NCBI RefSeq assembly: GCF_042453785.1
Contig: NC_091664.1
Span: 1,231,001 to 1,295,000, forward strand
Length of the DNA: 64,000 nucleotides
Direction of reading: 5' to 3'
Origin: Malus domestica
Lineage: Eukaryota > Streptophyta > Magnoliopsida > Rosales > Rosaceae
The stretch's first letter is position 1, and each line of letters opens with the position of its first letter. Below, in pieces: positions 372 to 57,110 of this stretch. The notes below the pieces were generated by a model. It ran no database searches and had not been told where the DNA came from. It was given only the letters and a program-made list of their open reading frames with translations. The translations under genes and the position numbers were made by a program.

Positions 372-439
372 GGTGTTGTATTACTGTTTACGGCACTAGA
401 GTGATTCCAATCAAGCGAAAAAAATGGCAGTGGTTTTTT

Positions 440-11006: not shown

Positions 11007-11802
11007 TTACTCACTAGTGAGTACACTCTACTCAATCTCCCATGGGAGAATTTTGAATGCGGGTCTTATTTACCCATTTGGATGTGATAAGTTGTAAATT
11101 GCACGACTTTTATGCCCGAATGGATGATGTTTGGCTTCTCAAACAGGAGGAACGCCTCTTGAAATAAGGATGTGGCTCTATCCAGAACGCACCCATGTTC
11201 GAACATTGAAAAAAATTAGAAGTCAAGAGTAAAAACACGACCAAGTTTAGAGTTTAGGGTATCAACCTCCCTCAGTTGCTTTCTGAAAAAGTACTTTTTT
11301 TAAAAAGCTATATAAAATCCCAACTCAGATCGCTTTCTGAAAAGCACTTTGTAAAAAGCTCTACAAGAACAATACAAGGCCTCCACACCAAGCCACTTAA
11401 GGATGCTAAGCATGCATTATCTCAGTGAGTAAACAAACTAAAAGTGAATCAGCAAATCCAAATATACGAAAAGAAGATAATGAGATACTGGAACACCAAA
11501 ATATATAAGCTCAAAAATTATCCATTCAACAGACGCAACAAAACTTGATAAGTAAATAGTCTCAACTCAAAAACATCCTCCTTCAGAAGGCGGAATCGAC
11601 ACAACATAAACTTGATGGGTCACCACCGCCTGTCCAGAACCCAATTCTGGGCGCCGACACTCGAGAATGAAGACATCAGACCGGAATTAAAACAACTACA
11701 AACTAAACCGACTAAACCACTTAAAACCAAACAACTAAGATAAGAGTTTGTATCATAAAAGCATAAGTTTGCGTCAGTGAAAATTTGAGTACTGGCCATT
11801 GT
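11007..11802. other. 3' flank of EF-1-alpha
   Basis: Non-coding. Bases from about 11520 to 11802 probably include the EF-1-alpha 3' UTR (minus strand); no clear poly(A) signal could be fixed. 11230-11370 resembles remnants of AAAAGC-type MITEs. Confidence 0.4.
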
Positions 11803-13849
11803 TCACTTCTTCTTGGCAGCAGACTTGGTGACCTTGGCACCGCTGGGATCCTTCTTCTCAACGCTCTTGATAACACCAACAGCAACAGTCTGGCGCATGT
11901 CACGAACAGCAAAGCGACCCAATGGTGGGTACTCAGAGAAGGTCTCCACAACCATGGGCTTGGTGGGAAGCATCTTCACCATACCTGCATCTCCGTTCTT
12001 CAAGAACTTTGGCTCCTTCTCAATCTCCTTTCCAGACCTCCTGTCAATCTTGGTAAGGATCTCACCGAACTTCACAGCAATGTGTGAAGTGTGGCAATCC
12101 AGAACTGGGGCATATCCGTTACCGATCTGACCAGGGTGGTTCATGATGATAACCTGGGATGTGAAGTTGGCAGCCTCCTTGGCAGGGTCATCCTTGGAGT
12201 TGGATGCAACGAAACCACGCTTGAGATCCTTCACGGCTACATTCTTAACATTGAACCCGACATTGTCACCGGGGAGTGCCTCCTGAAGAGCCTCATGGTG
12301 CATCTCAACAGACTTAACTTCAGTGGTCAGACCAGTTGGCCCAAAAGTCACAACCATACCAGGCTTGACGATACCAGTCTCAACACGTCCCACTGGCACA
12401 GTTCCAATACCACCGATCTTGTACACATCCTGAAGTGGAAGACGGAGGGGCTTGTCTGAGGGCCTCTTGGGCTCGTTGATCAGGTCAAGAGCCTCAAGAA
12501 GGGTTGGTCCCTTGTACCAGTCAAGGTTGGTGGACCTCTCAATCATGTTGTCACCCTCAAACCCAGAGATGGGAACAAAGGCGATTTTGTCGGGGTTGTA
12601 CCCAACCTTCTTCAGGTAGGATGAAACTTCCTTCACGATTTCCTCGTACCTTGCCTTGGAGTACTTAGGAGTGGTGGCATCCATCTACAAGAAGCAATGC
12701 AAACACGGGAATAAGTACACAATCAAAGTCAGCAAACCAGTACAACAAAAGCAGTCTTACAAGTGAATAACAACCAGTCAGGAGGCGCAAACAAATAACA
12801 TAAAACAGTTATTTGGCATCATCTAGAGTATAAACACTACAAATTTATAGATCATTATATGTTCTTTTAAGTTAATGACAGAGATGAATTAAGTTAGGCA
12901 AGAAATGACACATGACTTGCCTACACCTGTACATTGTTACAATGAAAAAAACAAGCCCAGACTCAATTTAAAATGGAACCAATACGCAATAAAAAAAATC
13001 AACTAAGCAGAGACTAAAAACAGTAGCAATATTCAATAGAAATAATTGTAAGACACATCAATACAACGCACTGAAGGTTGAGATAAACCACTGATAAAGC
13101 ATGTAGGAGAGAGAGGGAATCGAACCCTCAATAGTTAACTAAGAACTACGCCACCAGGCAGTCCCTCCAATTCATAACTCCAAACATCTCCTCATAAAGT
13201 GGACACTACCCATAGTTTGGGGCATCATTGATGCCCACAAATGCCAATCAATAGAACCACAAGGGGTATTTGAACTATGGGAGGATCCCTTTATCAGACA
13301 GAACCAACTGCACACAGAAGTTAGAAATAACACACAATAACATAATCATAATATTCAAAGACCAGGAAATTAGAATGGAATTTATACCTTGTTACAGCAG
13401 CAAATCATCTGCTTCACACCGAGGGTGAAAGCAAGAAGAGCGTGCTCACGGGTCTGTCCGTCCTTGGAAATACCAGCTTCGAAACCACCAGTGGTGGAGT
13501 CAATGATGAGGACAGCACAGTCAGCCTGTGAAGTTCCAGTAATCATGTTCTTAATGAAATCACGATGCCCTGGAGCATCAATGACCGTGCAGTAGTACTT
13601 TGTGGTCTCAAACTTCCACAAGGCGATATCAATGGTGATACCACGCTCACGCTCAGCCTTAAGCTTGTCAAGCACCCAGGCATACTTGAACGACCTTTTG
13701 TTCATCTCAGCAGCTTCCTTCTCGAACCTCTCAATCACACGCTTGTCAATACCGCCAAGCTTGTAGATAAGATGACCAGTGGTGGTCGACTTGCCGGAGT
13801 CGACATGGCCAATGACCACGATGTTGATGTGAAACTTCTCTTTACCCAT
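11803..13849 (-). CDS. Elongation factor 1-alpha (eEF1A)
   Basis: GTP-dependent carrier of aminoacyl-tRNA to the ribosomal A site, in the cytosol. Two coding exons on the minus strand, 13849-13388 and 12684-11803, give 447 amino acids, the usual plant length. The G1 loop GHVDSGKST is at about residues 14-22, DAPGH at 91-95, and NKMD at 153-156. The 702-base intron (13387-12685, GT-AG) splits NKMD between K154 and M155. The C-terminus ends in the usual basic AAKKK. The reading frame is intact with no unusual residues in the GTP-binding motifs. A second intron lies in the 5' UTR (13870-14512), ending 20 bases before the ATG, as is typical of plant eEF1A genes. Plants carry several near-identical copies, so which paralogue this is cannot be told from the sequence. 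Confidence 0.97.
13090..13175 (-). repeat. tRNA-like (SINE-type) sequence in the eEF1A intron
   Basis: On the minus strand an A-box-like TGGCGTAGTTC (13153-13143) is followed 16 bases later by a B box GGTTCGATTCC (13126-13116). This is the internal Pol III promoter arrangement of tRNA-derived SINEs. It does not fold as a complete tRNA as far as I can see, so a SINE head or tRNA relic is the better call. Confidence 0.6.
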
Positions 13850-13869
13850 GCTAAGTAACTAGAATTTAC

Positions 13870-38283: not shown

Positions 38284-38869
38284 ATATCTGTAGACATCGA
38301 AATTGCGGTGAAATAAATGTTCACCAACGCATTGAAATTTTGACGTGTCAGGGCATACATGGCATATGCCACGTGTCATACAAATTGTACACATGGTGTG
38401 TGACTCAACAAAATAAGAAGAAATACCCTTGGAGGATTACACAAGTTTTTCTTCTCATTTTGGGCAATGACAAGGCAAGCACATTTCAATCCATTGAAGA
38501 TCAAAACAAGGTTTTCTTCTCATTTTGGGCAATGACAAAGCATGCACATATCAAGTTTAAAATGATATTAAGTGGAAAATTAGGCCATAAAATTACCACT
38601 TCAAGTTTAAAATTGTATTAAGTGGGAAATTAGGCAATGGTGCTTGGAAAAGAAAAAAATATTTTGTGGTGGTGATTCATTCTCAAAGCCTATAAATAGG
38701 CTTCTACATCAAGGTATCAAAAAACCAATTCACAAATACATTTCTCTACTCCCAAAATGGAAGATAATACTCCCCACACATCCAAAATCCTTGAAGCTTT
38801 GAAACTCTAAAGCTTTCAAGCATCCAACCTCCCAAATTCAAGCAAATCCCGAAGGATCAAGAAAGCCTT

Positions 38870-39090
38870 CTTCGTTCTTCGTCAAATCCTCCTTCAAGAT
38901 CAAGCCCTAACAGCCCTTGAAGAAATTTCTCTTTCAAGATCAAGCCCCAACGGCCCTTGAAGAACTTCCACCAATTCAAGATCAAGCCTCGACGGCCCTT
39001 GAAAAAAAGTGTTCAACAAATCCACACAACTGTTCATCCTAAGATCAAGCCCCGACGGCCCTTTTGGATCAACAACATCACCAAATCCAC
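38870..39090. repeat. LTR-internal array of AAGATCAAGCC units (left LTR, first part)
   Basis: Units share AAGATCAAGCCCCGACGGCC and are followed either by CTTGAAGAA or by TTTGGATCAACAACATCA. Many units start TTCAAG and end CTTGAA, giving each a short inverted repeat. The array continues at 47164-48030 and is repeated at 53600-54905 and, more diffusely, at 52440-52930. Longer units of about 64 bases (ending AATCCACACAACTGTTCAT) are visible at 47164-47580 and 53740-54400. Confidence 0.9.
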
Positions 39091-39099
39091 ATAACTGTT

Positions 39100-39611
39100 T
39101 GTTGATGCACAAAATCAGCGAAGACTTTGGTACAACAGAAAGTGTCAGGTTTTGTGACCTTCGCTTGGTTGCTTCGGTCATTAGTGAGGATAAGTACGTA
39201 AATGAATAGAGACAGAGAAGCAAACACAGGATGTACGTGGTTCACCCAGATTGGCTACGTCCACGGAGTAGAGAAGTTCTTATTAGTAGTGAAGGGCTTA
39301 CACAAGTACAAAGGATCAAGCTCTCAATTTAGTGAGTTCTTGTGAATGATTTAACACAAATGGCATTAGCCAATATTGTGGGGGAATGACCCCTATTTAT
39401 AGAAAAACTTGTAGCTTTGTCACATTGACATATGTCATGTTATGATTGGTTCTTGATGTCGACACGTGCTGCGCTCTGATTGGCTTCTAATCTTGACACG
39501 TGTCGAGTAGTGATTGGCCTCCTGGTCGGAGGGGAACTCTTCTGGGTCCTTGACAGTATAGCGTTGGCCGGTGCTCGGTAGTTTCGGGATTGGTCAAGTA
39601 TGGTACAAACA
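39100..39611 (-). repeat. 3' LTR of the inner element
   Basis: 512 bases, plus-strand reading TGTTGATGCAC to GGTACAAACA. Minus-strand TATA box TATAAATA at 39401-39394. It differs from the other LTR at five positions, all transitions. Confidence 0.95.
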
Positions 39612-41852
39612 GTGCTCCCCTAAGTTCCCGAGTGAGGGAAACTCCTCGGTTGGGGACTTGCAAGATCCAATCCCTTGAGTAATCACGAAACTTCTAAGTA
39701 CCGAAGTGTGGTCTGATCTTCATCTGCCCTTCTCTGGAAGTACCTTTCCTCCATCCGGGAATGGTGTATTTAGCTGATGTTGACGCACAAGGTAATGTAT
39801 CAATTTCACTTGAAGCTTAGTTGTAGTTTCGGGCTTAGTCAAGTGTGATACAAACCCTATAGTAGGAGTCCCCCAAGTCGCCGAGCTAGGAGATCTGCCG
39901 AAAGAGGTGACAGACAAGGTAAGCAGTCAAACTTCCAAGTAAGCAACCCAGGATCAGAGGTTTGACTTCGGCTTCCGGTTGATTGTTCTCCTTCTCCTTG
40001 TCTCTCATTCAACTGCCAGGATAAGGAGAAGCAAATGGATAAGAGATGATATGAGATACTTTTGCTTTTGAAGAAGTAACTTTCCACAGGCTTATTCTTG
40101 AACTGTGCTGGAGGGTTTTCTGGTGCCCTTCAGAGTATAAGGCCGACTCAAAAATTTGAGGGTCAAAACAAGTCCATCAAATCTAGAGTACGTTCGATCT
40201 TGATGATATGGGATACTTTTGCTGTTGACGGAATAATGAATGTGGTATGGAAAGGTGTCGTGTTGTAGTGATCTGTTTCAGCTCACCGTTGAACCTTCTG
40301 CTTCAATCTTTTGCATGGCAGAAGTGGTGTGCAACCTTTGCATTTAAATGGTCCTTCAGAACATTCCTTCATAGTGACTCATCCACGCTTGGCAGCTTCA
40401 GTGTAAAGAGCCAATATCTGATCAACTGTCATGAGGTATTTGCCGGTGGAATTCGTGACCTTGACAGCAGTTGAGGATGAGTACTCGAGAGCAATGCTAA
40501 GTAAGCAACCAGGCAAAGGCTCCAGGCAGTCAGTTCCAAATTGGAGGTTTGATTTCAGGTTCCGACTGACTGCTCTCTTTCTCCTTGTCCTGCAGGTGTG
40601 GACAAGGACAAAGACAAAGATAGGGAGAAAGCATGATATGGGATACTCTTGCTTTCGACCCTGATGATATGAGATACTCTTGTTCTTGGTGTGGCTTATT
40701 TGCTGAGGTATTATCGGGGGGAAATAAAGCTGAGTATTTCGAGAGGTTATGTTGAGGGTGCCTTTTCGAATGCGAGAAAGGGTTGAGCATTTTTGCAGGT
40801 TTGCCTGTCCGTTGAGGAGGGAGGTCAATGTATATAGGGATTTCCCAATAACAAGTAGTAATGCTATTCCTTTACCCTTCTTGGTCACAGCAATGTAGTG
40901 GGAGTTGCCAGCTTCACGTGTTTTAATTTTGTCAGAGCACTTTGAAAAAGTGGTATGTGGTATCTGGAAAGCTGATATTACGTGTGAAGATTACAGACAA
41001 GCTTTATCTAAGGAAATCTGGCTCTCGAAGTTCTGAGAGTTGTGCCTCTTCGGTTTTCGAACAAGCAATCCCGTCGAGGATCTGACTCTCGAGATTTGGA
41101 AAGCGGTGCTACTCCGGTTTTTGAGAAAGTAATTATGTTGGGAGTCTTTTCTCGAATGTGAGTAAAGGTTGGACGTTCTTGCCAACCTGTCTTGCCGCAA
41201 AACACGGAGGTCGACACACATAGGGACTTTCCAGTTGTCAAGCAGTGGTGCTGTTCCTTTACCCTTATGGGTAATAGTAGGGTAGCTGGAACTTCGAAAT
41301 TCTCGTGCCTAAACTTTGTCAGAGATCTTTGACAAAGTTATATGTGGTACCCGAGGAGTTGATGGTGCATATGGAGAGCGGTGATTGAACAGTAAGATTC
41401 ACGTGCTTTTTACTTCACCAGAAATCTTCGACAGATTGCCCGTAATTTTCGCAAAGCTGATTGTGCATGTGACAGGTGCTGACGAGGCTGAAAAAGCAGG
41501 TGCTTCTTCGATTTCTGAGATCGACCCTCGTGGTCTCTGAGCAGCCCAGCTTTTGAGAAAGCAAACGCCTCTTCGATTTCTGAGATCGGCCCTCGTGGTC
41601 TCTGAGCAGCCCAGCTTTTGAGAAAGCAAACGCCTCTTCGATTTCTGAGATCGGCCCTCGTGGTCTCTGAGCAGCCCAGCTTTTGAGAAAGCAAACGCCT
41701 CTTTGATTTCTGAAGCTCCGTCGAGTGCAGATTTTTATAGAGGCTGGCATTAAGTTCCACAGCACACCTGAATCTCTACCAGTAGAAGCTCATTTCTTGC
41801 ACTTCTAAGATCTTGATTTGTCCGACCTCTTCCTTCTTCAACACATTTGAAA
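39612..41852. other. Inner element: region between 3' LTR and antisense ORF
   Basis: Non-coding in both directions. It repeats the phrase GATATG(A/G)GATACT(C/T)TTGCT at about 40050, 40207, 40637 and 40667, and GACTTTCCAGTT-type lines. On the minus strand it matches 50935-52250 of the outer element. It would be the 5' leader or promoter of the antisense ORF as well as the 3' UTR of the element. Confidence 0.6.
41506..41710. repeat. 65-bp tandem repeat, three copies plus a partial
   Basis: Units start CTTCGATTTCTGAGATCG at 41506, 41571, 41636 and (partial) 41701, nearly identical. They lie about 145 bases upstream of the antisense ORF start. A related, diverged reverse-orientation set occurs in the outer element at 51050-51145. 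Confidence 0.92.
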
Positions 41853-42527
41853 ATGTCTGGACCCTCCGACCGTCGTTTTGACCTGAACCTTGGAGAAGAG
41901 ACAGCCACGCCTTCTCCAGACAACATATGGCGCCCATCCTTCATATCCCCTACTGGTCCTCTTACCGTTGGGGATTCTGTGATGAAGAATGATATGACCG
42001 CTGCAGTGGTGGCCAGGAACCTTCTCACTCCCAAAGATAACAGACTACTTTCCAAACGGTCTGATGAGTTGGCTGTTAAGGACTCTCTGGCTCTTAGTGT
42101 TCAGTGTGCAGGTTCTGTGTCTAATATGGCCCAACGCCTATTTGCTAGAACCCGCCAAGTTGAATCATTGGCTGCTGAAGTGATGAGTCTCAAACAGGAG
42201 ATTAGAGGGCTCAAGCATGAGAATAAGCAGTTGCACCGGCTCGCCCATGACTATGCTACAAACATGAAGAGGAAGCTTGACCAGATGAAGGAATCTGATG
42301 GTAAGGTTTTACTTGATCATCAGCGGTTTGTGGGTTTGTTCCAAAGGCATTTATTGTCTTCGTCCTCTGGGGCTGTACCTGGTAATGAAGCTTCAAATGA
42401 TGAACCTCCAATGCCTCCTCCTTCTGGGGTTTTGTCAAGTACTGAGGCTCCGGATAACCACCCTCCGGTGCTTTCTCTTTCTCGGGCTCTACCGACTGCT
42501 GAGACTTCCCCTAAGCAACCTTTGTGA
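41853..42527 (+). CDS. Antisense coiled-coil ORF of the inner retrotransposon
   Basis: Intact 224-codon ORF on the strand opposite to gag, between the gag side and the 3' LTR. The ATG at 41853 has a good context (GAAAATGTC). The protein begins MSGPSDRRFDLNLGEETATP; DLNL resembles an EAR-type repression motif. A Leu/Lys/Glu-rich coiled coil lies at about residues 95-145 (EVMSLKQEIRGLKHENKQLH), followed by a Pro/Ser-rich tail. No enzymatic motif is visible. A TATA-like TTTTATAGAGG lies about 120 bases upstream. Some Tat-lineage plant retrotransposons are known to carry antisense ORFs between pol and the 3' LTR, so the position fits, but the function is unknown. It has no stop or frameshift although the nearby gag has a nonsense codon. 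Confidence 0.75.
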   Translation: MSGPSDRRFDLNLGEETATPSPDNIWRPSFISPTGPLTVGDSVMKNDMTAAVVARNLLTPKDNRLLSKRSDELAVKDSLALSVQCAGSVSNMAQRLFARTRQVESLAAEVMSLKQEIRGLKHENKQLHRLAHDYATNMKRKLDQMKESDGKVLLDHQRFVGLFQRHLLSSSSGAVPGNEASNDEPPMPPPSGVLSSTEAPDNHPPVLSLSRALPTAETSPKQPL

Positions 42528-42730
42528 AGGCTCCATTTTGTTTGTTTATTTTGACTCATGTATATGTACATATTTGTGGCTTATCGAAAATATTAATAAA
42601 TAAGCTTTGCTTCATTTCAATATATTGTGTTAAATACACCAAAGCCTTCTTCATAAAGTTCTTTGAATTTTTGCTTTTGTTGAAACCTGTATTGTTGAAG
42701 CTTTGTGAGTGAAGCATGTAGTTTGAGGTA

Positions 42731-42890
42731 GTGTTCCCTTAATTTCCCGAGTGAGGAAAACTTCTCGGTTGGAGACTTGAAAAATCCAAGTCACTGAGTG
42801 GTTGTGAGACTGCCGAGTATTAAGGTGCAGTAGCATATGGTGGGAGTCCCCCAAGTCTTCAGGCGAAGAGAGTTGCCGAATGAGGTGTCT
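42731..42890. repeat. Direct repeat flanking the antisense ORF
   Basis: GTGTTCCCTTAATTTCCCGA and the next 100 bases match 39612-39730. GGGAGTCCCCCAAGTC near 42840 matches 39866. The antisense ORF cassette therefore sits between two direct copies of sequence that otherwise lies beside the LTR. Confidence 0.7.
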
Positions 42891-43109
42891 CGCTTGTTAC
42901 TAATTTGTCAAAGTAACGAATCCTTGTTTCGATGTCACACATTCGCATATGCCTTATCTAAAAATATTTCCAACTTTTGTGTGTTTGATGCTGCATGCTA
43001 TTGACTAGACAAGATTAAGTGCAATTAGTAGCTTTTCTCTCTTTTTCATCTTTTCTTTGGTGGAATTGCTTTTCGTTTCCACTAATCAGCCTGAGTGGAT
43101 GCAAGATAA

Positions 43110-44110
43110 CACCATTCTCTATAGCTCAGATCGCAAAGTCGTCTTCATGAAAGTTGTTCCTTATCTTGTGAACTACAACATCTCCAAATTTGAGATCCAT
43201 CGGAGTAGTACAACTCCAGAAATTCAGGTATGATGAGTAACTGTTCATCAATTTTCTGTTAACCCGTCAGACTTGTTGTGAGCTTCTAAACTCCATTTTT
43301 TCTTGTTCATCTCAACATACTTTCTTCATCAAAGTTGTTCCTCACCTTGTCAGCTACAACATATCCAAATTTGAGATCCATCGGAGCAGTACAAATCCAG
43401 AAATTCAGGTATGATGAGTGACTGTTCATCATTTTTCTGTCAACCTGTCAGACTTGTTGTGAGCTTCGAAACTCCATTTTCTCTTACTCAGATCAACATA
43501 CTTTCTTCATCGAAGTTGTTCCTTAACTTGTGAACTACAACATATCCAAAATTGAGATCCCTCGGAGCTGTATAACTCAAGAAATGCAGGTATGATGAAT
43601 GACTGGTTATGATTTTTCTGTCAACCCGTCAGATTTGTTGTGAGCTTTGAAACTCTATTTTCTCTTGCTCAGATCAGCATGCTTTCTTCATTGAAGTTGT
43701 TCCTCAGCTTGTGAACTACAACATATCCAAATTTGAGATCCCTCGGAGCTGTATAACTCAAGAAATTCAGGTATGATGAATGACTGGTTATTATTTTTCT
43801 GTCAACCCGTCAGATTTGTTGTGAGCTTCGAAACTCCATTTTCTATTGTTCAGATCAGCATGCTTTCTTCATTGAAGTTGTTCCTCATCGTCTCTTTCAT
43901 AACATATCAAAAATTCAGAATGAACTAATGGTTAAATATTTCCAGATCTTCGAAACATCACAGCAGCTTCGAAATCTGCAAGAATCCGACTGTCATGTTT
44001 GGAGCTTCAACACTTTAATTTCCGTCGCTCAAACAGAAATGGTTCCTTCTTGAAAGTTGTTCATATGCTCAAAAACTATAGGGTGTCCAAAATTCAGCTC
44101 CATTGGAGAA
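43110..44110. repeat. 181-bp tandem repeat, five copies plus a degenerate sixth
   Basis: AAGTTGTTCC lies at 43151, 43332, 43513, 43694 and 43875, a spacing of exactly 181 bases; a diverged copy starts near 44053. Each unit carries CTACAACAT(A/C)TCCAAATTTGA, GGAG(C/T)(A/T)GTA and CAGGTATGATGA. No long ORF crosses the array. Confidence 0.95.
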
Positions 44111-44460
44111 GAGCAGAGGTTGCAGAAATTTGATAGATGAAAGGAGGCGGAAGAGGGAGAGAGAGAAAAAGTCTCTTGGGTTGGATTTCTATTTTGGGGC
44201 AGATTCCAAGTTTTGTAGCACCTTCATTATTGATGAATTGCTTGTACTTTTGTCCATTATGAAACTTGGGACTTTGGCTTGTTGTTGGATCTATTATAAT
44301 ATGTTTGGAAACATATACATAATTGCTTGTTTGGTTATGACAGGGATGTTGTGGGTGTAGAACAAAACAAATGTTTGTGTTGACCTGTGTTTTTGTACAA
44401 GTTCAAGGGCATCTTGGGTTTTGTGAACAAAATTTGTTTATTTGGAGTAAGGTTTTGTGT

Positions 44461-44785
44461 TGAAGCTTTGTAGGTGAAGCTTTGGTGTTGAAGCTTTCTA
44501 GGTGAAGCTTTGATGGTGAAGCTTTCTGGGTGAAGCTATGTAGGTAAAGCTTTCTAGGTGAAGCTTTTTTAGGTGAAGCTTTGTAGGTGAAGCTTTTTTA
44601 AGTGAAGCTTTTCGGGTGAAGTTTTTTGGGTGAAGCTTTGTGGGTGAAGCTTTTTAGGTGAAGCTTTGTGGGTGAAGCTTTGATGGTGAAGCTTTGTGGG
44701 TGAAGCTTTTTAGGTGAAGCTTTGTGGGTGAAGCTTTTTTAGGTGAAGCTGTTTGGGTGAAGCTTTTTGGAGGTGAAGTTTTTTT
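44461..44785. repeat. GTGAAGCTTT minisatellite
   Basis: Around 20 units of 15-17 bases, consensus GGTGAAGCTTTNTA or GGTGAAGCTTTGTG, followed by a run of about 22 T. Confidence 0.95.
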
Positions 44786-44974
44786 TTTTTTTTTTTTTTT
44801 GGCGCTTGACACGGTCTTCATTTGCTTGTTTTGTAGTGACTGTGGAAGACGGATTGCTTTCTGATTGAGAAGGGTTCCGGCATCGCTTTGCACCATCTTC
44901 ATGTGGGTAATATAGGAACTTCCTTATGTTTTGATCATGCATGTAGTGATAGAATTTGTTTCTTCTTATTGTAA

Positions 44975-45247
44975 ATGTCAGAGCCTGGAAGTTCTAGTGA
45001 TGAGGGCTCTTCTAGCTTTAGCTCTAAGTCTGAGTCTGCAATGTCGGAGTCTTCAGGGTCTTTGTTAGAGTCCTGTACTAGAGAAACATTGGATGATCTT
45101 CCCAACCGTCAAACTTTAGCTATTGCTAGTTCTTCCTCCATGGCGTTGGGTGAGGGGGTTTCTCCTGATATGTCTTTGCCTCGGCGGAGGCATGGTTATA
45201 AGCCTGCGCCATCACCTCAGAGTAAGTCTTCCAAGTATTGGCATTGA
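44975..45247 (+). CDS. Second antisense ORF start, overlapping the end of gag
   Basis: Ninety codons on the plus strand starting MSEPGSSSDEGSSSFSSKSE, Ser-rich, then PRRRHGYKPAPSPQ and a short unrelated end. It overlaps the 3' end of gag (45126-45247) tail to tail. The Ser-rich start followed by RRRHGYKP resembles the N-terminus of the 'putative gypsy type transposon' proteins that occur antisense in such elements; this attribution is from memory and uncertain. The frame breaks where gag breaks, so I infer a deletion junction that removed pol and the rest of this ORF. CAGAGTAAGT at the end could serve as a splice donor. Confidence 0.45.
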   Translation: MSEPGSSSDEGSSSFSSKSESAMSESSGSLLESCTRETLDDLPNRQTLAIASSSSMALGEGVSPDMSLPRRRHGYKPAPSPQSKSSKYWH

Positions 45248-46544
45248 TCATGTATTTAAAGAAACAATCACGTAGGCCTGCCGTGAAGGCTTTAAGGGCA
45301 GTCTTGTCGTCTGCCTCGGCACACCGGGAGTATTCATGGCTGAAGCGGCCAGCATACATACGTAATGACTCGTCTGGCCTCTGGCGGATAGTGTACAGGT
45401 CATCTGCAGAGTGCAAGCGATCGGTTTGGAAAATGTGTTGGGAAACAAATAGTTTCCTCAATTCCTCAAATGAGTCTACCGTCTCAGGTGTAAGACGACA
45501 ATACCAATTTAGAGCTCCGCCAGAGAGGGTGGAGGGGAAGAGAAGACATCGCTCTTCGTCGGTGTGCATCCGGTATGCCATGGTGGACTCAAAGAGGTTA
45601 AGGTGCTCAATCGGGTCCTCTTTTCCAGTATAAAGTTGCAAGCCAAGCTTCTGCTTTGTCTTTGCTTGAAGGGGGGTGTTGAGGATCCTCCTTGTAAGAG
45701 GGCCAGGCCTGGGTTGGTTCCAGTCAGGTATTTCAGCCTGACGTTCAGCCTTCAACTTGTTTACTTCCTCAAGAAGTTGTAGGACAAGGGGGTCCTGAGC
45801 GGAGTTATGTGCCACTGGAGCTTTCTTTCGTAAATCTCCATCTCCTCTTGGAATTAGGAAGGTTTGATCAAGGGCATGTGATTTTTCCCTGGACTCGCTG
45901 TACTGGCTTCCAGGGTATGTCTGTCAGAACACATCTGAGTCCCCTGTACCCTCATGTCTCTCTAGGACTTGTTGCACTTTCCCCAAGTTGGTGGCCGGCT
46001 CGGGCCGTGGCAGGGGACCGAGTCTCTCAGAAATCCTTGGGTCATTGATCTTTGAGCTTATATGGATGGAATTCTCTCGACGTTGCTTCAGGAAATCCCG
46101 ACAATCGCGAAAGACGACTTTCGATCCTTCTGCCCCTTCAGCAAAGAGGTGTCTCCCTCCGCTTCTCATGGTTCGGGTCGAAGCAACTGGGTTAAGAGAA
46201 GCCTCATGTTGATTATCAAATCGAGGGGTAATTTGTTCCCTATCAGGGATATCTATGTCGAATGCATGTGACCCTCCATGTTGGAGGGCACCCAGTTGAT
46301 GGTTGACTTCCACGGGGGCAACAAGCTCGCGTGTCTGAGCTTGCCTAGCTTCGTGGAGTGTCTCGAAGAGCTTCTCATATTGCTCCTGGAGGACCTCATT
46401 CCTCATTGCTATCTTGTTGTTCTGAGCTTCCAACTCATCGACTTTAGCTTGAAGAAGAACTCGTTTTCCTTCCTTCTTTCGTTGTTTCGCACTATGTGCA
46501 AGGGGGGTGTCATTCTGTGTGCTGTGGCTTCCTTCGTTTCCCAT
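45126..46544 (-). pseudogene. Inner element gag, one internal stop, truncated
   Basis: Structural capsid-type protein of an LTR retrotransposon. The frame runs from an ATG at 46544 (MGNEGSHSTQNDTPLAHSAK) through a coiled coil (about residues 22-75) to a TGA at 45926-45924. It then continues in the same frame to 45126 with a clear retrotransposon-gag domain: DPIEHLNLFESTMAYRMHTD, then GGALNWYCRL, then RKLFVSQHIF and DESLRMYAGRFSHEYSRCAE. The C-terminal part, with any zinc knuckle, and the whole of pol are absent. The sequence switches at about 45126-45250 to an ORF on the opposite strand (44975-45247). A single nonsense codon is the only other lesion, in keeping with a recent insertion. The frame preservation suggests the parental family still made functional Gag. 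Confidence 0.88.
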
Positions 46545-46630
46545 GCTGGAGAGGGATGCCTGATCAAAAGAAAGTGTACGAATGATAGAAACCAGCTTGA
46601 CACAGCTGAAGAGAGTAGGAATAAGTGTCG

Positions 46631-46651
46631 TTTCCCACAGACGGCGCCAAA
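46631..46651 (-). promoter_or_regulatory. Primer-binding site of the inner element
   Basis: Minus strand reads TTTGGCGCCGTCTGTGGG immediately after the 5' LTR, the conserved PBS form of many plant Ty3/gypsy Tat-lineage elements. Confidence 0.8.
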
Positions 46652-47163
46652 TGTTGATGCACAAAATCAGCGAAGACTTTGGTACAACAGAAAGTGTCAG
46701 GTTTTATGACCTTCGCTTGGTTGCTTCGGTCACTAGTGAGGATAAGTACGTAAATGAATAGAGACAGAGAAGCAAACACAGGATGTACGTGGTTCACCCA
46801 GATTGGCTACGTCCACGGAGTAGAGGAGTTCTTATTAGTAGTGAAGGGCTTACACAAGTACAAAGGATCAAGCTCTCAATTTAGTGAGTTCTTGTGAATG
46901 ATTTAACACAAATGGCATTAGCCAATATTGTGGGGGAATGACCCCTATTTATAGAAAAACTTGTAGCTTTGTCACATTGACATGTGTCATGTTATGATTG
47001 GTTCTTGATGTCGACACGTGCTGCGCTCTGATTGGCTTCTAATCTTGACACGTGTCGAGTAGTGATTGGCCTTCTGGTCGGAGGGGAACTCTTCTGGGTC
47101 CTTGACAGTATAGCGTTGGCCGGTGCTCGGTAGTTTCGGGATTGGTCAAGTATGGTACAAACA
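46652..47163 (-). repeat. 5' LTR of the inner element
   Basis: 512 bases, TATA box on the minus strand at 46953-46946. It drives transcription leftwards, towards gag. Confidence 0.95.
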
Positions 47164-48177
47164 CTGTTCATCCTAAGATCAAGCCCCAACGGCCCTTTGG
47201 ATCAACAACATCAACAAATCCACACAATTGTTCATCCTAAGATCAAGCCCCAATGGCCATTTGGATCAATAACATCAACAAATCCACATAACTGTTCATC
47301 CTAAGATCAAGCCCCAACGGCCCTTTGGATCAACAACATTAACAAATCCACACAATTGTTCATACTAAGATCAAGCCCCAACGGCCTTTTGGATCAATAA
47401 CATCAACAAATCCACACAACTGTTCATCCTAAGATCAAGCCCCGACAGCCCTTTTGGATCAACAGCATCAACAAATCCACATAACTGTTCATCCTAAGAT
47501 CAAGCCCCGACGACCCTTTGGATCAACAACATCAACAAATCCACACAACTGTTCATCCTAAGATCAAGCCCCAATAGCCCTTTTTGGATCAACAATCATC
47601 CACCAATTCAAGATCAAGCCCCGACGGCCCTTGGATCAACAATCCACCAATTCAAGATCAAGCCCCAAAGGCCCTTGAAGAACTTCCACAAATTCAAGAT
47701 CAAGCCTCGACGGCCCTTGAAGAAAGCACCATCGTTCATCATCCATTCATCCAAGATCAAGCCCCGACGGCTCTTGGATCAACAACATCAACAAATCCAC
47801 ACATCCAGCCGTTCTTCAAGATCAAGCCCAAAAGCCCTTGAAGATCCATTCATCACCGTTATTCAAGATCAAACCTTAACGGCCCTTGAAGAAACACTCA
47901 TCCTCAAGATCAAGCCCCAACGGCTCCTTGAAGATCCGCTCAAATCCACCTTCAAAGATCAAGCCCACGACCCTTTGAAGAAACTTCCAACAGTTCATCC
48001 AAGATCAAGCCTCGACGGCCCTTGGATCAACGAAACATCCACAAATCAACACCTTACGGAGATCGAATCAAAGGATCAAATTTGAGAGAGATTGTAACCC
48101 AAAATCATCAAACACCAAATATTATTTTGTGCACGTTGTTCTTGTCGTTTTCGTTTCAGGAATTTTCCGTGTTCACA

Positions 48178-48200
48178 AATTGGCACGCCCAGTGGGACAA
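48178..48200 (+). promoter_or_regulatory. Primer-binding-like site of the outer element
   Basis: TTGGCACGCCCAGTGGGAC follows the left LTR directly. The matching tRNA cannot be fixed from sequence alone. Confidence 0.6.
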
Positions 48201-48255
48201 TCTCTACCTCTCATCTCTTTCTCCGTTCAAGGAATCCAAATACACCTCAAAGTCA

Positions 48256-49931
48256 ATGGCATCAAGCAAGGGACAAGCCGTTTTCGCAACCACTGAGGGA
48301 AGGGTCCTAAGCACTTCTGCCATAAATGGACAATCCATTGGCGCCATAACCGCTCCTCAACATGTCACTTCAAAGTTTGTGTCGTTAAAGGAGCAAGGGG
48401 AGCATCAAAGGCGCGAGTCCGTCATCAACCTGACCTTGTTGGGGGCACCGAAGCATGATGCTGAGGCACACAAGATGACATCCCAAAGCAGCCAACGACG
48501 TTCTTCATCAGCATCCTGAATGTCTAAAGGAAAGTCACGTCTATTGGTCGCACAAGTCATGACCATCGGCGTTACCTCCATCGAAGAACAACTGGCTCAA
48601 ATGAATGAAGCAATCGCAAGGCTAACCCGAACTGTGGAAGAAAAAGACTTGCAAATCGCTGCACTCGTCAGTCGACTAGAGCCACAGGACGGCGAGAACC
48701 TAACCTAGAAGATGAGCCTACGGTGGAGAGAATCGATGTGAAGCCGGAGCCAGACCAAGAAGCGGCACTCATGAGATCTCTTTCTATCCAGCAGTTGCAA
48801 GAGATGATTGCCAGCACCGTCAAGGCACAGTACGAAGGGAGCTCAAATACCTCCGGGTTGTACTCAAAGCCTTATTCAAAGAAGATTGATGCCCTAAAGA
48901 TGCCGAGGGGATATCAACCACCAAAGTTCATGCAGTTTGATGGAAAAGGAAACCCAAAGCAGCACGTTGCACATTTCGTCGAAACTTGCAACAACGCGGG
49001 GACGGAGGGAGACTACCTCGCCAAGCAGTTTGTGCGCTCGCTGAAAGGAAACGCCTTTGAGTGGTACACGGACCTAGAGCCTGAGTCCATCAACAGCTGG
49101 GAGCAATTGGAGCGGGAATTCCTCAACCGCTTCTACAGCACCCGCCGCACTGTGAGCATGCTAGAGCTAACGAGCACAAAGCAGTGGAAGGACGAGCCAA
49201 TCATTGACTACATCAACAGATGGCGCACTCTAAGCCTCGACTGTAAAGACACGCTCTCGGAAACCTCTTCAATCGAGATGTGCATCCAAGGCATGCAATG
49301 GGGTTTGCAATACATCCTTCAAGGCATTAAACCACGGACCTTTGAGGAATTGGCCACCCGCGCCCATGACATGGAGTTGAGCATCGCCCATCATGGGAAG
49401 AAGGAACTGATCGCCGACTACAAGAACGACAAAATTCTTGAGACAAAGGTGAAGAAGGCTACGTGGAAATCCACCAAGGAAGCAATGACAGTCAACACAT
49501 CTCCCGTCAAAATCCCTACACGAGGCAAGGCGATTCAAGCTGAAGCTTTTCGTGATCAAGAAATGCGTAGATGCACTTTGAAGGAGCTTGAGGAGAAAAC
49601 TTATCCATTCCCCGACTTTGATGTGGTTGCCATGTTAGAAGACTTGCTAGAAAAGAATGTGATCGACTTGCCTGAGTGCAGACGGCCAGAAGAGATGAAT
49701 CGCACCGACAGTCCAAGGTACTGTAAATTCCACCGCTTTATCAGTCATCCGACAGAAAAGTGCTTCGTGCTGAAAGATCTCATCATGAAGCTGGCTCAGA
49801 AAGGAATCATCGAGCTAGATCTTGACGATGTGGTGAAGTCAAACTATACCACCATCACTTCTGGCTCTTCGGACTCAAAGTTTTTACCTCAACCTCCGGG
49901 GGCATCCTCCAAGACAAGCAAAGTTGAATGA
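48256..49931 (+). pseudogene. Outer element gag, one stop and one frameshift
   Basis: Capsid-type protein of the outer element. The frame starts at ATG 48256 (MASSKGQAVFATTEGRVLST), is broken by a TGA at 48517-48519, continues in frame with a coiled-coil segment (EEQLAQMNEAIARLTRTVEE), and shifts frame by one base near 48700. From 48723 it is open for about 400 codons to 49931. This part has a clear retrotransposon-gag domain (FDGKGNPKQHVAHFVETCNN, then NAFEWYTDL, REFLNRFYSTRRTVSMLEL, and DYINRWRTLSL) and, near the end, a Cys/His cluster YCKFHRFISHPTEKC that resembles a reduced zinc knuckle. It belongs to a different gag family from the inner element. The main capsid part is intact; only the N-terminal region is damaged. 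Confidence 0.9.
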
Positions 49932-50230
49932 TGGACTCAAGTCACTCCTAAGAAATTGCACAAAAAGCATACGTCTCCTTCACAAGTTCGCCAATCGGAA
50001 AGAGGGCAAATCAGCTATTGTCAAACTTCAAAGCAACGTGAACGTGTTGAAAATGATGAAATTGCGACACAAAGATCGTCCATCCCCATCACAATGCGCG
50101 ATTTCTTGCCCGAAGACTTCTTCAATCACTCGGTCAAGGCTCCTTGCTATGAAGATTGTGAGGAACGCTTCTCCAAAATTGCTTGACAAAATTCACAAAT
50201 TCTCCTCGCCCACACGAGTCTAAACTGCAT
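49932..50230. other. Outer element: post-gag region
   Basis: Sequence still resembles coding DNA in composition, and gag-pol linker-like words are visible (ITMRDFLPEDFF in one frame near 50090), but no protease or RT motif follows. It looks like the stump of a deleted pol region. Confidence 0.5.
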
Positions 50231-50800
50231 AGCACAAAGCTCCTGGTCTGCACGAGCATAAAAGGCAACACCAATGCTCCTTGTTCGCACGAGCCTAAAC
50301 TGCACGAACCAATGCTCCTTATTCGCACGAGCCTAAACTACATGAACCAATGCTCCTTGTTCGCACGAGCCTAAACTGCACGAACCAAATCTCCTTGTCC
50401 GCATGAGCCTAAACTGTAGGACACGAGGCTCCTCGCCTACACGAGCCTAAATTGCATGGCACAACACTCCTGGTCCGCATGAGCATAAAAGGCAACATCA
50501 ACGCTCCTGATCCGCATGAGCATAAAAGGCGATACCAACGCTCCTGGTCCACACGAGCCTAAAATGTGACAACCAAAGCTCTTGGTCCCCATAAGCATAA
50601 AAGGCAACACCAACGCTCCTGATCTGCATGAGCATAAAAGGCGATACCAACGCTCCTGGTTTGCACGAGCATAAAAGGCGACACCAAAGCTCATTGCCTG
50701 CATGAGCTGAAACTGCAAGCAGCACCAAAAACACTCATTGCTTGCACGAGTTGAAACTGCAAACGTCATCGAGATGCTCCTGGCCCGCAAGAGCATAAAC
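50231..50800. repeat. 37-38-bp tandem array in the outer element
   Basis: About 15 units of the form GCTCCTGGTCCGCACGAGC followed by (A/C)TAAAAGGCAACACCA or CTAAACTGCACGAACCA. GCTC and GAGC at the ends of the first part can pair, giving each unit a small hairpin. The array takes the place where pol would be expected. Confidence 0.92.
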
Positions 50801-53000
50801 CGCCAAAAGCAATCCATCACCCATTTGAACTACGTTATGACTTGATCCCTCATCAACAGAGGATACGTAGGCAACTTGAAGCGTCAAAACTTCAAGTACA
50901 GTCACACCGTCTAAAAAAAAATATAACACTTTGAAGAAAGAAGAGGTCGGACAAATCAAGATCATAGAAGTGCAAGAAAGGAGTTTCTACAAAGCGAAAA
51001 TTCAAGTGTGCTTTGAAACGAACTGCGTGCCTCTATAAAAATCAGCACTCGACGGGATTTCAGAGATCGAAGAGGCAAGCTCAGAATTCAAAGAGGCCAA
51101 TTCAAAAATCGAAGAGGCAAGCTCAGAAATCAGATAGGCATCTTGCTTTTCCAGACGTGTCAGCACCCGTCACACGTAAACTCAGTTTTGCGGAAATCAC
51201 AGGCAATTTGTCGAAACGCCGATCCTAGATATCGAAGAGGCGCTAGCCTTTTTTAGCCTCGTTAACACCTGTCACATGCACACTCAGCTTGGCGGAAATT
51301 ACGGACAATTTGTCGAAGATTTCTGATAAAGAAGAAAGCACGTGAAGCCATACTGATCAATCACGCATTGGTTGCCGACACAAGTGAAAGAATAGTACCT
51401 CTACAGGTATTAAAAGACTTCATATAACTATCCACCTTCACCCTCCATAGCAAGGCAGACATACAGAACCTTTCTTCATCTCTGAGAACCTTTCTTCATC
51501 TCCGAGAATGCCTTCCCAACGAAGCCTCTCGAGTCACTCAGTGTTTCTTATTCCTTGGGGTACATCTGCAAACAAATGACACCAAAGCAAAAGTATCTCA
51601 TATCACCAGGGTAGAAAGCAAGAATATCTCATATCATGCTTTCTCCCCGTCTTTTCCTTTGTCATTGTTCTTACCTGCAAAGACAAGGATAAATAAAACA
51701 ATATGTCTGAACCTCCACTCAAACTCGGGTAAGGAATCGACTACCTGGAACCTTTGCCTGATTGCTTACATGGTATTACTCTCGAGTACTCGTCTTCCAC
51801 TGCTGCTGTACTTCCAAAGAAGTTGCCAGATCTGCCTGGAGAACAGATAAGGCAAGTGAAAATGATACCTTGCAACATGTGGAGACAACGTGCAGAAGGA
51901 ACAAGCAGAGAAGAATGTGGTCTGCACAGTCAACTCAGCAGAAGGAGTCCGAGTTGAGGAACTCAAGAAGCTGCCACATCTGCCTGAAGAAACAAACAAA
52001 GAAAAATACAGCATGCACAGTCAACTCAGCAGAAAGAGTCTGAACTGAGGAACTTGAGAAGATGCCACATTCTGCCAGAAGAATAGATAAGGCAAGAGAA
52101 AATGATACATTGAAGCATGTGGAGACAAGCAGAACAAAGCACGTGCCGATTCATCCGCTACTTCTTCAAAATCAAAAGTATCTCATATCATCAGGGTTGC
52201 AATCATTCTGGACGGTGAATTCGTTTTGACCCTCAAATTCTTGGGTCGGCTTACTAGGCGTTGTGAGCTGCACGTGTCGATTCACCACCCTTGAATCAAA
52301 TCCTTAAAGATCAAGTCACCAACTGGAAGAAGAGCCCATCAATCTTGAAGATTATACCGTTGACTAAACTGCTCAGGTGTGAATTAGAAAGATTGAACAA
52401 AGCAACAAGTCGTCACCTTCACCTCGTGCCTGCTTGCCATGTGTTCGAGTCAACCTTCAAGAATCAAGCCTCAACGGCCCTTGAATAAGCTTCCAGCCAA
52501 ATTCAAGATCAAGCCTCGACGGCCCTTGAGGAAATCACAAGTCTGATTCAAGATCAAGTGTCTACCACCCTTGAATCAAAACCTAGTTCAAGAATAAGCT
52601 GTGGAAAATCAACAATTTGAGGAATCCAGAAAATCTTCCAATCCAGTTCAAGATTAAAGCTGTGGAAAGTCAACAAAGCGCAAAAAACAAATACGTGCCG
52701 ATTCATCCACTACCAAAGCCAAAGATCATCTACCACATGAAGCTCCTTGTGGTCCAATTTCAACCTTCAAGATCAAGCCTCGACGGCCCTTAAAGAAATT
52801 TCAAACAAAAGTTCAAGAACAAGCCTCAACGGCCCTTGAAGAAATCTCAAGCCCAATTCAAGATCAAGCCTCAACGGCTCTTGAAGAAATCTCCAGCCCA
52901 ATTCAAGATCAAGCCTCGATGGCCCTTGAATCGACATCTGCAGTAAGGGACTTCAAAACGCATCTCCTACACGTGACAAACACATGTATACGACGCACCT
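50801..53000. other. Outer element: 3' non-coding region
   Basis: No ORF of note on either strand. 50935-51060 (AAGAGGTCGGACAAATCAAG, then CCTCTATAAAAATC and GCACTCGACGG) is the reverse complement of 41715-41840 in the inner element, and other parts match 40100-41700. 52440-52930 repeats the AAGATCAAGCCTC unit found in the LTRs. Confidence 0.7.
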
Positions 53001-53015
53001 TGAAGTGGGGGCATT
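53001..53015 (+). promoter_or_regulatory. Polypurine tract of the outer element
   Basis: TGAAGTGGGGGCATT lies directly before the right LTR, where the plus-strand primer of an LTR element is expected. Confidence 0.7.
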
Positions 53016-55053
53016 TGTAGACATCGAAATTGCAGTGAAATAAATGTTCACCAACGCATTGAAATTTTGACGTGTCAGGGCATACATGGCATATGCCACA
53101 TGTCATACAAATTGTACACATGGTGTGTGACTCAACAAAATAAGAAGAAATACCCTTGGAGGATTACATAAGTTTTTCTTCTCATTTTGGGCAATGACAA
53201 GGCAAGCACATTTCAATCCATTGAAGATCAAAACAAGGTTTTCTTCTCATTTTGGGCAATGACAAAGCATGCACATATCAAGTTTAAAATGATATTAAGT
53301 GGAAAATTAGGCCATAAAATTACCACTTCAAGTTTAAAATTGTATTAAGCGGGAAATTAGGCAATGGTGCTTGGAAAAGAAAAAAATATTTTGTGGTGGT
53401 GATTCATTATCAAAGCCTATAAATAGGCTTCTACATCAAGGTATCAAAAAACCAATTCACAAATACATTTCTCTACTCCCAAAATGGAAGAGAATACTCC
53501 CCACACATCCAAAATCCTTGAAGCTTTGAAACTCTAAAGCTTTCAAGCATCCAACCTCCCAAATTCAAGCAAATCCCGAAGGATCAAGAAAGCCTTCTTC
53601 GTTCTTCGTCAAATCCTCCTTCAAGATCAAGCCCTAACAGCCCTTGAAGAAATTTCTCCTTCAAGATCAAGCCCCAACGGCCCTTGAAGAAATTCCACTA
53701 ATTCAAGATCAAGCCTCGACGGCCCTTGAAGAAAGTGTTCAACAAATCCACACAACTGTTCATCCTAAGATCAAGCCCCGACGGCCCTTTTGGATCAACA
53801 ACATCACCAAATCCACATAACTGTTCATCCTAAGATCAAGCCCTTGAAGAAATTTCTCCTTCAAGATCAAGCCCCAACAGCCCTTGAAGAACTTCCACTA
53901 ATTCAAGATCAAGCATCGACGGCCATTGAAGAAAATGTTCAACAAATCCACACAATTGTTCATCCTAAGATCAAGCCCCGACGACCCTTTTGGATCAACA
54001 ACATCACCAAATCCACATAACTATTCATCCTAAGATCAAGCCCCAACAGTCCTTTGGATCAACAACATCAACAAATCCACACAATTGTTCATCATAAGAT
54101 CAAGAACTGTTCATCCTAAGATCAAGCTCCAACGGCCCTTTGGATCAACAACATCAACAAATCCACACAATTGTTCATCCTAAGATCAAGCCCCAACGGC
54201 CCTTTGGATCAATAACATCAACAAATCTACACAACTGTTCATCCTAAGATCAAGCCCCGACGACCCTTTTGGATCAACAACATCACCAAATCCACATAAA
54301 TGTTCATCCTAAGATCAAGCCCCAACGGCCCTTTGGATCAACAACATCAACAAATCCACACAACTGTTCATCCTAAGATCAAGCCCCAACGACCCTTTTT
54401 GGATCAACAATCATCCACCAATTCAAGATCAAGCCCCAACGGCCCTTGAAGAAAGTGTTCTTCATTCTTCGTTCATCGTTCTTCCAAGATCAAGCCCCGA
54501 CGGCCCTTGGATCAACAATCCACCAATTCAAGATCAAGCCCCAGAGGCCCTTGAAGAACTTCCACCAATTCAAGATCAAGCCCCGACGGCCCTTGAAGAA
54601 AGCACCATCGTTCATCATCCGTTCATCCAAGATCAAGCCCCGACGGCCCTTGGATCAACAACATCAACAAATCTACACATCCAACCGTTCTTCAAGATCA
54701 AGCCCAAAAGCCCTTGAAGATCTGTTCATCACCGTTATTCAAGATCAAACCTTAACGGCCCTTAAAGAAACACTCATCCTCAAGATCAAGCCCCAACGGT
54801 TCCTTGAAGATCCGCTCAAATCCACCTTCAAAGATCAAGCCCACGGCCATTTGAAGAAACTTCCAACAGTTCATCCAAGATCAAGCCTCGACGGCCCTTG
54901 GATCAACGAAACATCCACAAATCAACACCTTACGGAGATCGAATCAGAGGATCAAATTTGAGAAAGATTGTAACCCAAAATCATCAAACACCAAATATTA
55001 TTTTGTGCACGTTGTTCTTGTCGCTTTCGTTTCAGGAATTTTCTGTGTTCACA
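53016..55053 (+). repeat. Right (3') LTR of the outer element
   Basis: 2038 bases, intact, with its TATA box at 53418-53425. It is about 220 bases longer than the left LTR because it has more internal units in the array at about 53600-54900. Confidence 0.92.
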
Positions 55054-55058
55054 ATATC

Positions 55059-56040: not shown

Positions 56041-57110
56041 TTATAATTAGTACCTCACAATAGGCTAGCAATAATGTGATTATGTTTATTAAATATTATT
56101 TTCTCTATTTTTAAACATGTTCAAAACATCTTAAGAGGCGCGTAGTGCCGGTTATAAAAAAGGTCTTTCGCATGCGCATAATAATGTGATTCAATTAGTT
56201 GTCAAATGATTGTTTTTTTTTATTTCAAACAAACGATATTATCTACATTAAGGGGGAAGGGGTGGGCTTAGCCTCGTAATGGGTTAATAATATTTTGATT
56301 CAATCAGTTGTTTATTAAATATTATTTTCTCTATTTTTACACAAGTTCAAAACATCTTAAAAGGCGCGTAGTGCCATTTATAAAAAAGGTATTTCACTCA
56401 CGCATAATAATGTGATTCAATTAGTTGTCAAATGATTTTTTTTTCTTTTCTAACAAACGATATTATCTACACTAAAGAGGAGGAGGTAGGCTTAACCTCA
56501 CAATGAGCTAGTAATAATATGATTCAAGCAGTTGTTTATTAAATATTATTTTCTCTATTTTTAAATACATTCAAAACATCTTAAGAGGCACGTAGTGCTG
56601 TTTATAAAAAAAGTCTTTCGCACACGCATAATAATATGATTCAATTAGTTGTCAAATGATTTTTTTTTTTTTTTAACAAACGATATTATCTACACTAGGA
56701 GGATGGGGTGGGCTTAGCCTCACATTGGATTAGCAATAATGTGATTCAATTAATTGTTTATTAAATATTATTTTCTTTTTTTTAAACATGTTCAGAACAT
56801 TTTAAGCGTACTGCCGATGATAAAAAAAAGTCTTTCACACGCGCACAATAATGTGATTCAATCAATTGTATTATTTTCTCTATTTTTAAACACTTAAGAG
56901 GCACGTAATGCCAATTATAAAAAAGGCATTTCGCACACACATAATAATGTGATTCAATTAGTTGTCAAATGATCATTTTTTGTTTTTGTTTGAATAAACG
57001 ATGTTTTCTACACTAAGGGTGAGGGGGTGGGCTTAATCTCACAATGTGTTAGTAATAATGTAATTCAATCAGTTGTTTATTAAATATTATTTTTTCTATT
57101 CTTAATGTAA
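56040..57110. repeat. About 224-bp tandem repeat array
   Basis: Four to five units. GTTCAAAACATCTTAAGAGG-type words recur at about 56117, 56343, 56567 and 56786, with a shortened unit near 56890. Each unit also has GGCGCGTAGTGCC (often decayed), CGCATAATAATGTGATTC, TTGTCAAATGAT and GGGGTGGGCTTAGCCTC. No coding potential. Confidence 0.9.

Follow-up and report, generated by a model that had tools for sequence, protein, structure and literature searches.

Nested pol-less Ty3/gypsy-type retrotransposons of apple and a host-gene slot in relatives of the outer element

A 64,000-nucleotide stretch of Malus domestica DNA (contig NC_091664.1, positions 1,231,001 to 1,295,000 of the forward strand; hereafter the window, numbered from its first letter) contains a long terminal repeat (LTR) retrotransposon that is split in its left LTR by a second such element on the opposite strand. 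Each carries a recognisable gag and no detectable pol. The locus therefore raises two questions, namely what these elements encode besides gag, and what stands in their relatives at the place where pol would be expected. Based on an analysis of both elements and a search of the genome (651,096,769 bases in 19 contigs), we think it likely that both are non-autonomous Ty3/gypsy-type elements that supply their own Gag and an antisense protein and borrow pol, and that the outer family has a slot filled by template switching on host mRNAs.

Gag, an antisense protein and no detectable pol

Each interior gave one match to Retrotrans_gag, a profile of the Ty3 capsid type (4.4e-14 in the outer element, 1.3e-15 in the inner one), as is characteristic of Ty3/gypsy gags. 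Stop-to-stop frames of at least 40 amino acids on both strands, 89 from the inner and 70 from the outer element, were scanned with Pfam at E <= 0.01. None of these 159 frames matched protease, reverse transcriptase (RT), RNase H or integrase, the domains of an autonomous Ty3/gypsy element, and the only matches other than gag were marginal (SIR3_C 0.0018, Ig_ENGASE1_C 0.001 and SlyX 0.0091). A preliminary description of the locus, made from the letters alone, had likewise seen a gag and no pol domain in each element, and the RT or integrase hit that would have refuted it did not appear. The inner gag region (45126-46703, minus strand) consists of two adjoining frames with one stop between them, and its capsid domain lies in 45126-45923. 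The outer gag region (48118-50183, plus strand) was delimited by comparison with a 702-amino-acid frame of the relative L022, relative to which it is interrupted; the longest open part, 48609-49931, holds the capsid domain. The two Gag proteins are 23% identical over 146 residues.

The inner element also has an open reading frame (ORF) antisense to gag (41817-42527, plus strand; a frame of 236 amino acids, 224 from the methionine of MSGPS). It is known from this one inner-family copy, and its protein is 77-89% identical to those of antisense ORFs in ten outer-family copies, despite the low identity of the Gag proteins. The module common to the two families is about 80% identical at the DNA level over about 1.1 kb, and further blocks recur in the 3' region. 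In the window, the common block occupies 40465-41841 (minus strand) of the inner element, surrounding the antisense ORF start and extending upstream, and 50931-51805 (plus strand) of the outer element, where it corresponds to the ORF start and the region upstream of it; the ORF itself has been lost from this outer copy. The ORF is predicted to encode a small coiled-coil protein; a structure model computed from the single window sequence consists of one helix of 110 residues (61-170; mean pLDDT 69, pTM 0.33, ends of low confidence). Transposase_28 (PF04195, TRP28) was absent among the matches of the inner antisense ORF at E <= 1.

From 55 pairs among 11 sequences, the first 175 codons of the antisense ORF gave a ratio of mean nonsynonymous to mean synonymous divergence (dN/dS) of 0.17; for 360 codons of the outer-family gag, compared in 36 pairs of 9 sequences, the ratio was 0.12. 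Motif filters excluded L024, L028, L030 and L032 from the gag set, and L024, L030 and the copies known only from L006-L020 from the antisense set. These low ratios indicate that both the antisense ORF and gag are or were under constraint.

The observations above bear directly on how the preliminary description had explained the locus, as two unrelated TR-GAG-like families, each with only gag between its LTRs and helped in trans. TR-GAG elements of plants consist of LTRs and gag without pol, with gag as the only gene between the LTRs. The elements studied here resemble them in having LTRs and gag and no pol, and the notion of two different pol-less families agrees with the 23% Gag identity and with LTR, primer binding site (PBS)-like and polypurine tract (PPT)-like sequences that differ between the elements. 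Against it, the inner element and ten outer-family copies have the same constrained antisense ORF, which refutes this explanation in part, and outer-family copies carry inserts in the slot described below. With this module in common, the two families are not independent. "Gag-only" is thus too simple a term, and the TR-GAG-like label does not fit as it stands, the present elements being distinguished by the constrained antisense ORF, an exchangeable insert in relatives and a size of about 8 kb or more. We consider two unrelated TR-GAG-like families quite unlikely.

If both elements lack pol, then protease, RT, RNase H and integrase would be borrowed from autonomous elements, and the likely lender to the inner element would be a family whose nearly identical gag lies in very long frames. 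The best 144 of 9,717 candidate places for the inner gag were scored and fell into two groups. In the first, 64 places including the window match through residue 265, and all except one of these lie in frames of 265-564 amino acids (63/64). The other 80 match only residues 1-258 of 265, at 98-99% identity; 67 of them lie in frames of at least 1,000 amino acids, many of 2,055-2,089, the size of a gag-pol polyprotein. Judged by frame length and Gag identity, these long frames are possible gag-pol helpers of the inner element, and the help from other elements proposed in the preliminary description is to this extent plausible. One place (G000:C14:3340005-3340799) has an inner-type gag match to residue 265 within a 2,798-amino-acid frame with one stop and could link the short and long groups. 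For the outer gag, the best 96 of 9,952 candidate places were scored; identity ranged from 88 to 100%, and open frames from 425 to 870 amino acids.

The slot of the outer family and its inserts

Twelve outer-family relatives were compared over 10 kb, and more copies were seen in part. Ten of the twelve have the same layout: gag, a 38-bp array, a spacer that is either empty or filled, antisense-ORF sequence and a common 3' block. Altogether 22 relatives were considered, made up of the 19 top gag matches to the window copy and three lower ones, and 20 of these were classified for the slot; L030 and L032, with tangled or unclear layouts, stand outside the count. The slot is empty in eight (L006, L009, L010, L011, L014, L016, L022 and L024) and filled in twelve (L008, L013, L015, L020, L021, L023, L025-L029 and L031), with inserts that are largely unrelated to one another. 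For L008, L013, L015 and L020 only the first 478-835 bp were seen, and such copies were scored as filled when the common start was followed by neither the antisense ORF nor a match to other copies, L020 being the weakest call. Among the empty copies, L009, L010, L014 and L016 are 93-96% alike; these four match L006 at 92-93% in a 341-bp stretch and L011 at 75-79% in one of about 310 bp.

The eight fully read inserts, of 1.7-2.9 kb, all occupy the same position, with gag and its array on one side and the antisense ORF on the other. When ten spacers were compared, the first 250 bp or so were held in common, and 3'-end pieces of up to about 400 bp were alike in several pairs. Internal patches were alike in a few pairs (628 bp from the common start in L025 and L028; 219 bp in L025 and L027), and the rest was unlike at the level tested. 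A-rich tracts flank the insert on both sides in the three filled copies whose sequence was printed (L025, L027 and L028), and the empty L022 and L024 have an A-rich tract at the would-be insertion site. L023 has about 1.9 kb of extra sequence within its gag-end region. In the window copy, a 37/38-bp tandem array at 50195-50722 (plus strand) is followed by a collapsed slot at 50723-50930 (plus strand), the position taken in relatives by an A-rich tract, any insert present and the antisense ORF; the window copy is about 1 kb shorter than L024 between the array and 50931. The window's outer element is a stripped copy from a family whose slot contains other sequence in 12 of the 20 relatives classified.

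Could this pattern simply be decay, in which autonomous elements lost pol one at a time and the gap was filled by later insertions or by assembly errors? The degraded state of the window's outer copy, with its gag interrupted and its slot and antisense ORF deleted, would suit such a history, as would the stops in gag of several relatives and the departure of L030 from the common layout. In contrast, the pol-less copies have low dN/dS in gag and in the antisense ORF, gag frames of about 700 amino acids are open in many outer-family copies, and antisense-ORF sequence is found in 17 of the 22 relatives, its position lying beyond the stretch covered in four more and L030 being the one in which it was not found. 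Ordinary decay is for these reasons a highly improbable explanation. In L030 (G000:C7:22674000-22683999), two LTR-gag stretches of the outer family are separated by about 6.5 kb, and the contig has four places with identical gag scores, suggesting a local array.

The content of the inserts was assessed by a Pfam scan of 142 frames of at least 75 amino acids from the eight spacers, 80 in gag sense and 62 antisense. At E <= 0.001 there were 51 matching families; 25 are displayed, many of them overlapping WD40 or leucine-rich repeat (LRR) models. Host domains were present in five of the eight fully read inserts. L027 contains the NAD-binding domain of malic enzyme (Malic_M, 254 residues, 2e-92) and L031 a CDK5RAP3 match (4.4e-46). 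Raffinose synthase (Raffinose_syn, 1.5e-53) was found in L025, along with a piece of an alpha/beta hydrolase (1.3e-4, below the curated cut-off). L026 combines BRI1-like sequence, comprising LRRs (4.4e-25) and the brassinosteroid-receptor island (Island, 9.9e-32), with GRAS (5.5e-19), and L028 has WDR5-type WD40 repeats (best model 1.2e-51) and an LRR N-terminal piece (0.0031, below the cut-off). Pieces of two genes are thus firmly present in L026, and also in L025 and L028 if the weak matches are counted. The by-eye candidates AP2-like in L029, PPR-like in L023 and CCCH-like in a second stretch of L028 gave no Pfam match in the tested frames.

The 62 antisense frames, which served as a control, gave a single marginal match (C19orf84, 8e-4) that was treated as chance; by subtraction, all other matches fall in the 80 gag-sense frames. 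The host matches are accordingly in transcript orientation, as expected of RNA-based gene capture. The malic-enzyme frame of L027 can be aligned to a solved malic enzyme with no gap over 323 residues (264-586) that reach the enzyme's C terminus. Since plant malic-enzyme genes have many introns, this stretch looks spliced. L025 is a mosaic, in which 191 bp as in L028 (94%) are followed by 219 bp as in L027 (98%), with an overlap of 6 bp.

An origin of the inserts from DNA must be weighed against these results. Gene-piece-carrying Helitrons or Pack-MULE-like elements could have jumped into outer-family copies, and several inserts have no identified source. Capture of host fragments in plants is described for Pack-type DNA elements in the accessible text of PMC13317346, and Helitron capture is named in that of PMC7264820. 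Capture as DNA would be expected to leave inserts in both orientations and with introns. Instead, all eight fully read inserts share one position, the host domains are read in the gag sense apart from one marginal antisense match, and the 323 malic-enzyme residues are uninterrupted. We therefore regard arrival as DNA as unlikely.

Taken together, the single location, the single orientation, the apparently spliced stretch, the mosaics and the A-rich borders fit template switching within the particle. We propose that the outer family has, in place of pol, an exchangeable slot bordered by A-rich tracts. As RT copies the element RNA inside the particle, it would leave this template at an A-rich tract, copy one or more co-packaged host mRNAs and then return, and the resulting DNA copy would bear a sense, spliced and often chimeric host insert. 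The A-rich tracts would be the likely crossing points, and splicing may be general among the inserts. We also lean, with less assurance, towards the broader view that a pol-less, gag-making family of high copy number serves as a standing vehicle for mRNA capture, its fixed slot being repeatedly refilled with chimeric host inserts while gag and the shared antisense module are kept by selection.

Nevertheless, a number of observations weigh against template switching and borrowed pol. No autonomous partner for the outer family was found among the best 96 of the 9,952 candidates, beyond which one may lie. Constraint that predates the loss of pol could account for part of the low dN/dS values, which are averages over pairs. 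No antisense ORF and no shared 3' block were seen in L030; eight of the 20 classified relatives and the window copy are insertless, and the set of 20 is not random, being drawn mostly from the top gag matches to the window copy. Several inserts have patches in common (L025 with L028 and L027; L028 with L031 and L029), which means that not all are independent captures. Pfam recognised nothing in the individually tested frames of three of the eight fully read inserts (L021, L023 and L029), and among ten frames from the four inserts seen in part the matches were all marginal and implausible (AgrB 0.0055, TMEM52 0.027). By-eye guesses of a PP2C-like L021 and a longin-like L008 found no match in Pfam or among solved structures and were not used. 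Lastly, the apparent loss of introns is read from continuous frames only.

Relation to known systems

A close likeness is to the Retand/Tat group of Ty3/gypsy elements as described in the accessible text of PMC11963269 (Vicient 2025), with which the present elements share gag, a long 3' region with tandem arrays and an antisense ORF before the 3' LTR, the last found in the inner element and in ten outer-family copies. In the part of PMC7264820 available to us, Grande, RIRE2, Retand and PvRetro13 are described as having an antisense ORF that lies between pol and the 3' LTR. According to the same text of PMC11963269, such ORFs are general in Retand elements, a Transposase_28 (TRP28) antisense domain occurs in 97% of the clusters studied, and recently active Retand/Tat members may lack some coding domains. 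The elements studied here differ in having no pol and an antisense protein with no Transposase_28 match, and that text makes no mention of host-gene inserts such as those in the slot of the outer family.

Captured genes are known in LTR elements of rice, sorghum and maize, as far as the available part of PMC3726574 goes. The outer family is similar in carrying host coding sequence between LTRs; it differs in being one family with a constrained gag, a fixed slot and differing inserts, and no such family is described in that part. A carrier family whose members each hold different, often chimeric host fragments also recalls Helitrons and the Pack-type DNA elements of PMC13317346 (accessible text), but the carrier here is an LTR element and the inserts are of a single orientation and apparently spliced, so that capture would be RNA-based. 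The same text describes abnormal template switching in plant LTR elements, with few examples. HODOR, a large high-copy LTR element of the 17-chromosome pome-fruit genomes of apple and pear, can be likened to the present elements by description only (PMC13334179 and PMC6901071). In the openly accessible literature surveyed, we came across neither a pol-less family that conserves gag and has a recurrent slot for host genes nor any account of the present family in apple.

Transducing retroviruses of animals traded viral genes for host genes. If our interpretation is correct, the outer family would be formally similar to them and would represent an RNA-based counterpart of Pack-MULEs. Capture would then be measurable, as its rate, its junction sequences and the choice of mRNAs could be read from many dated copies, and chimeric retrogenes would arise repeatedly from this family in a pome-fruit-like genome. 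Helper and parasite could be compared directly in the inner family, where short and very long frames contain near-identical gag.

Anatomy and age of the nest

The nest was established by self-comparison and inspection of the boundaries. The outer element spans 38289-55053 on the plus strand between target duplications of ATATC (38284-38288 and 55054-55058); with both duplications it occupies 38284-55058, the interval given in the preliminary description. Its left LTR of 1,820 bp is in two parts (38289-39099 and 47169-48177, plus strand), between which lies the entire inner element (39100-47163, minus strand), flanked by target duplications of CTGTT (39095-39099 and 47164-47168). The right outer LTR measures 2,038 bp (53016-55053, plus strand). 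Both elements have paired LTRs, TG..CA ends and 5-bp target duplications, as expected of LTR retrotransposons, and the perfect duplications, the opposite orientation and the position of the inner element in the left LTR agree with what had been noted earlier.

Both LTR pairs can be aligned end to end, as the claim of paired LTRs demanded. The inner LTRs, 512 bp each (3' LTR 39100-39611, 5' LTR 46652-47163, both minus strand), differ at 5 of 512 positions with no gaps, a Kimura two-parameter distance (K2P) of 0.0099. The outer pair has about 220 gap positions, as expected from a tandem-repeat zone that differs in copy number. Its K2P is 0.033 when this poorly aligning zone and all else are included, 0.010 for the first 600 bp and 0.022 for the last 188 bp. 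At the grass rate of 1.3e-8 substitutions per site per year, which is perhaps too fast for a tree, the ages would be about 0.4 million years for the inner element and about 0.4-1.3 million years for the outer one. Both are thus young, as previously proposed, and the order of nesting fits these ages.

PBS-like and PPT-like sites, also reported earlier, are present in both elements. The PBS-like sites lie at 46632-46649 (inner, minus strand) and 48181-48198 (outer, plus strand); no tRNA genes lie in the window. The PPT-like tract of the inner element adjoins its 3' LTR at 39612-39626 (minus strand), and that of the outer element is at 53001-53015 (plus strand). The inner element has two further tandem repeats on the minus strand, one of 181 bp between gag and the antisense ORF (43142-43984) and one of 14 bp (44421-44810). 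The outer LTR contains a long degenerate tandem array (47165-48050 and 53616-54930) that recurs at 52766-52936, near the 3' LTR.

Another compound locus, L032 (G000:C4:1141000-1150999), lies about 80 kb to the left of the window; there, outer-family stretches in both orientations stand beside 2.46 kb of sequence that matches the inner element at 97.9% identity. Immediately to the right of the outer element, a repeat of about 224 bp occupies 56083-56987. Among 13 frames scanned outside the elements, EF-Tu/eEF1A domain matches were found at 11789-13858, probably in minus-strand frames. A TIR-domain frame (1.1e-43) at the edge of the window (3-380, minus strand) is likely part of an immune-receptor gene.

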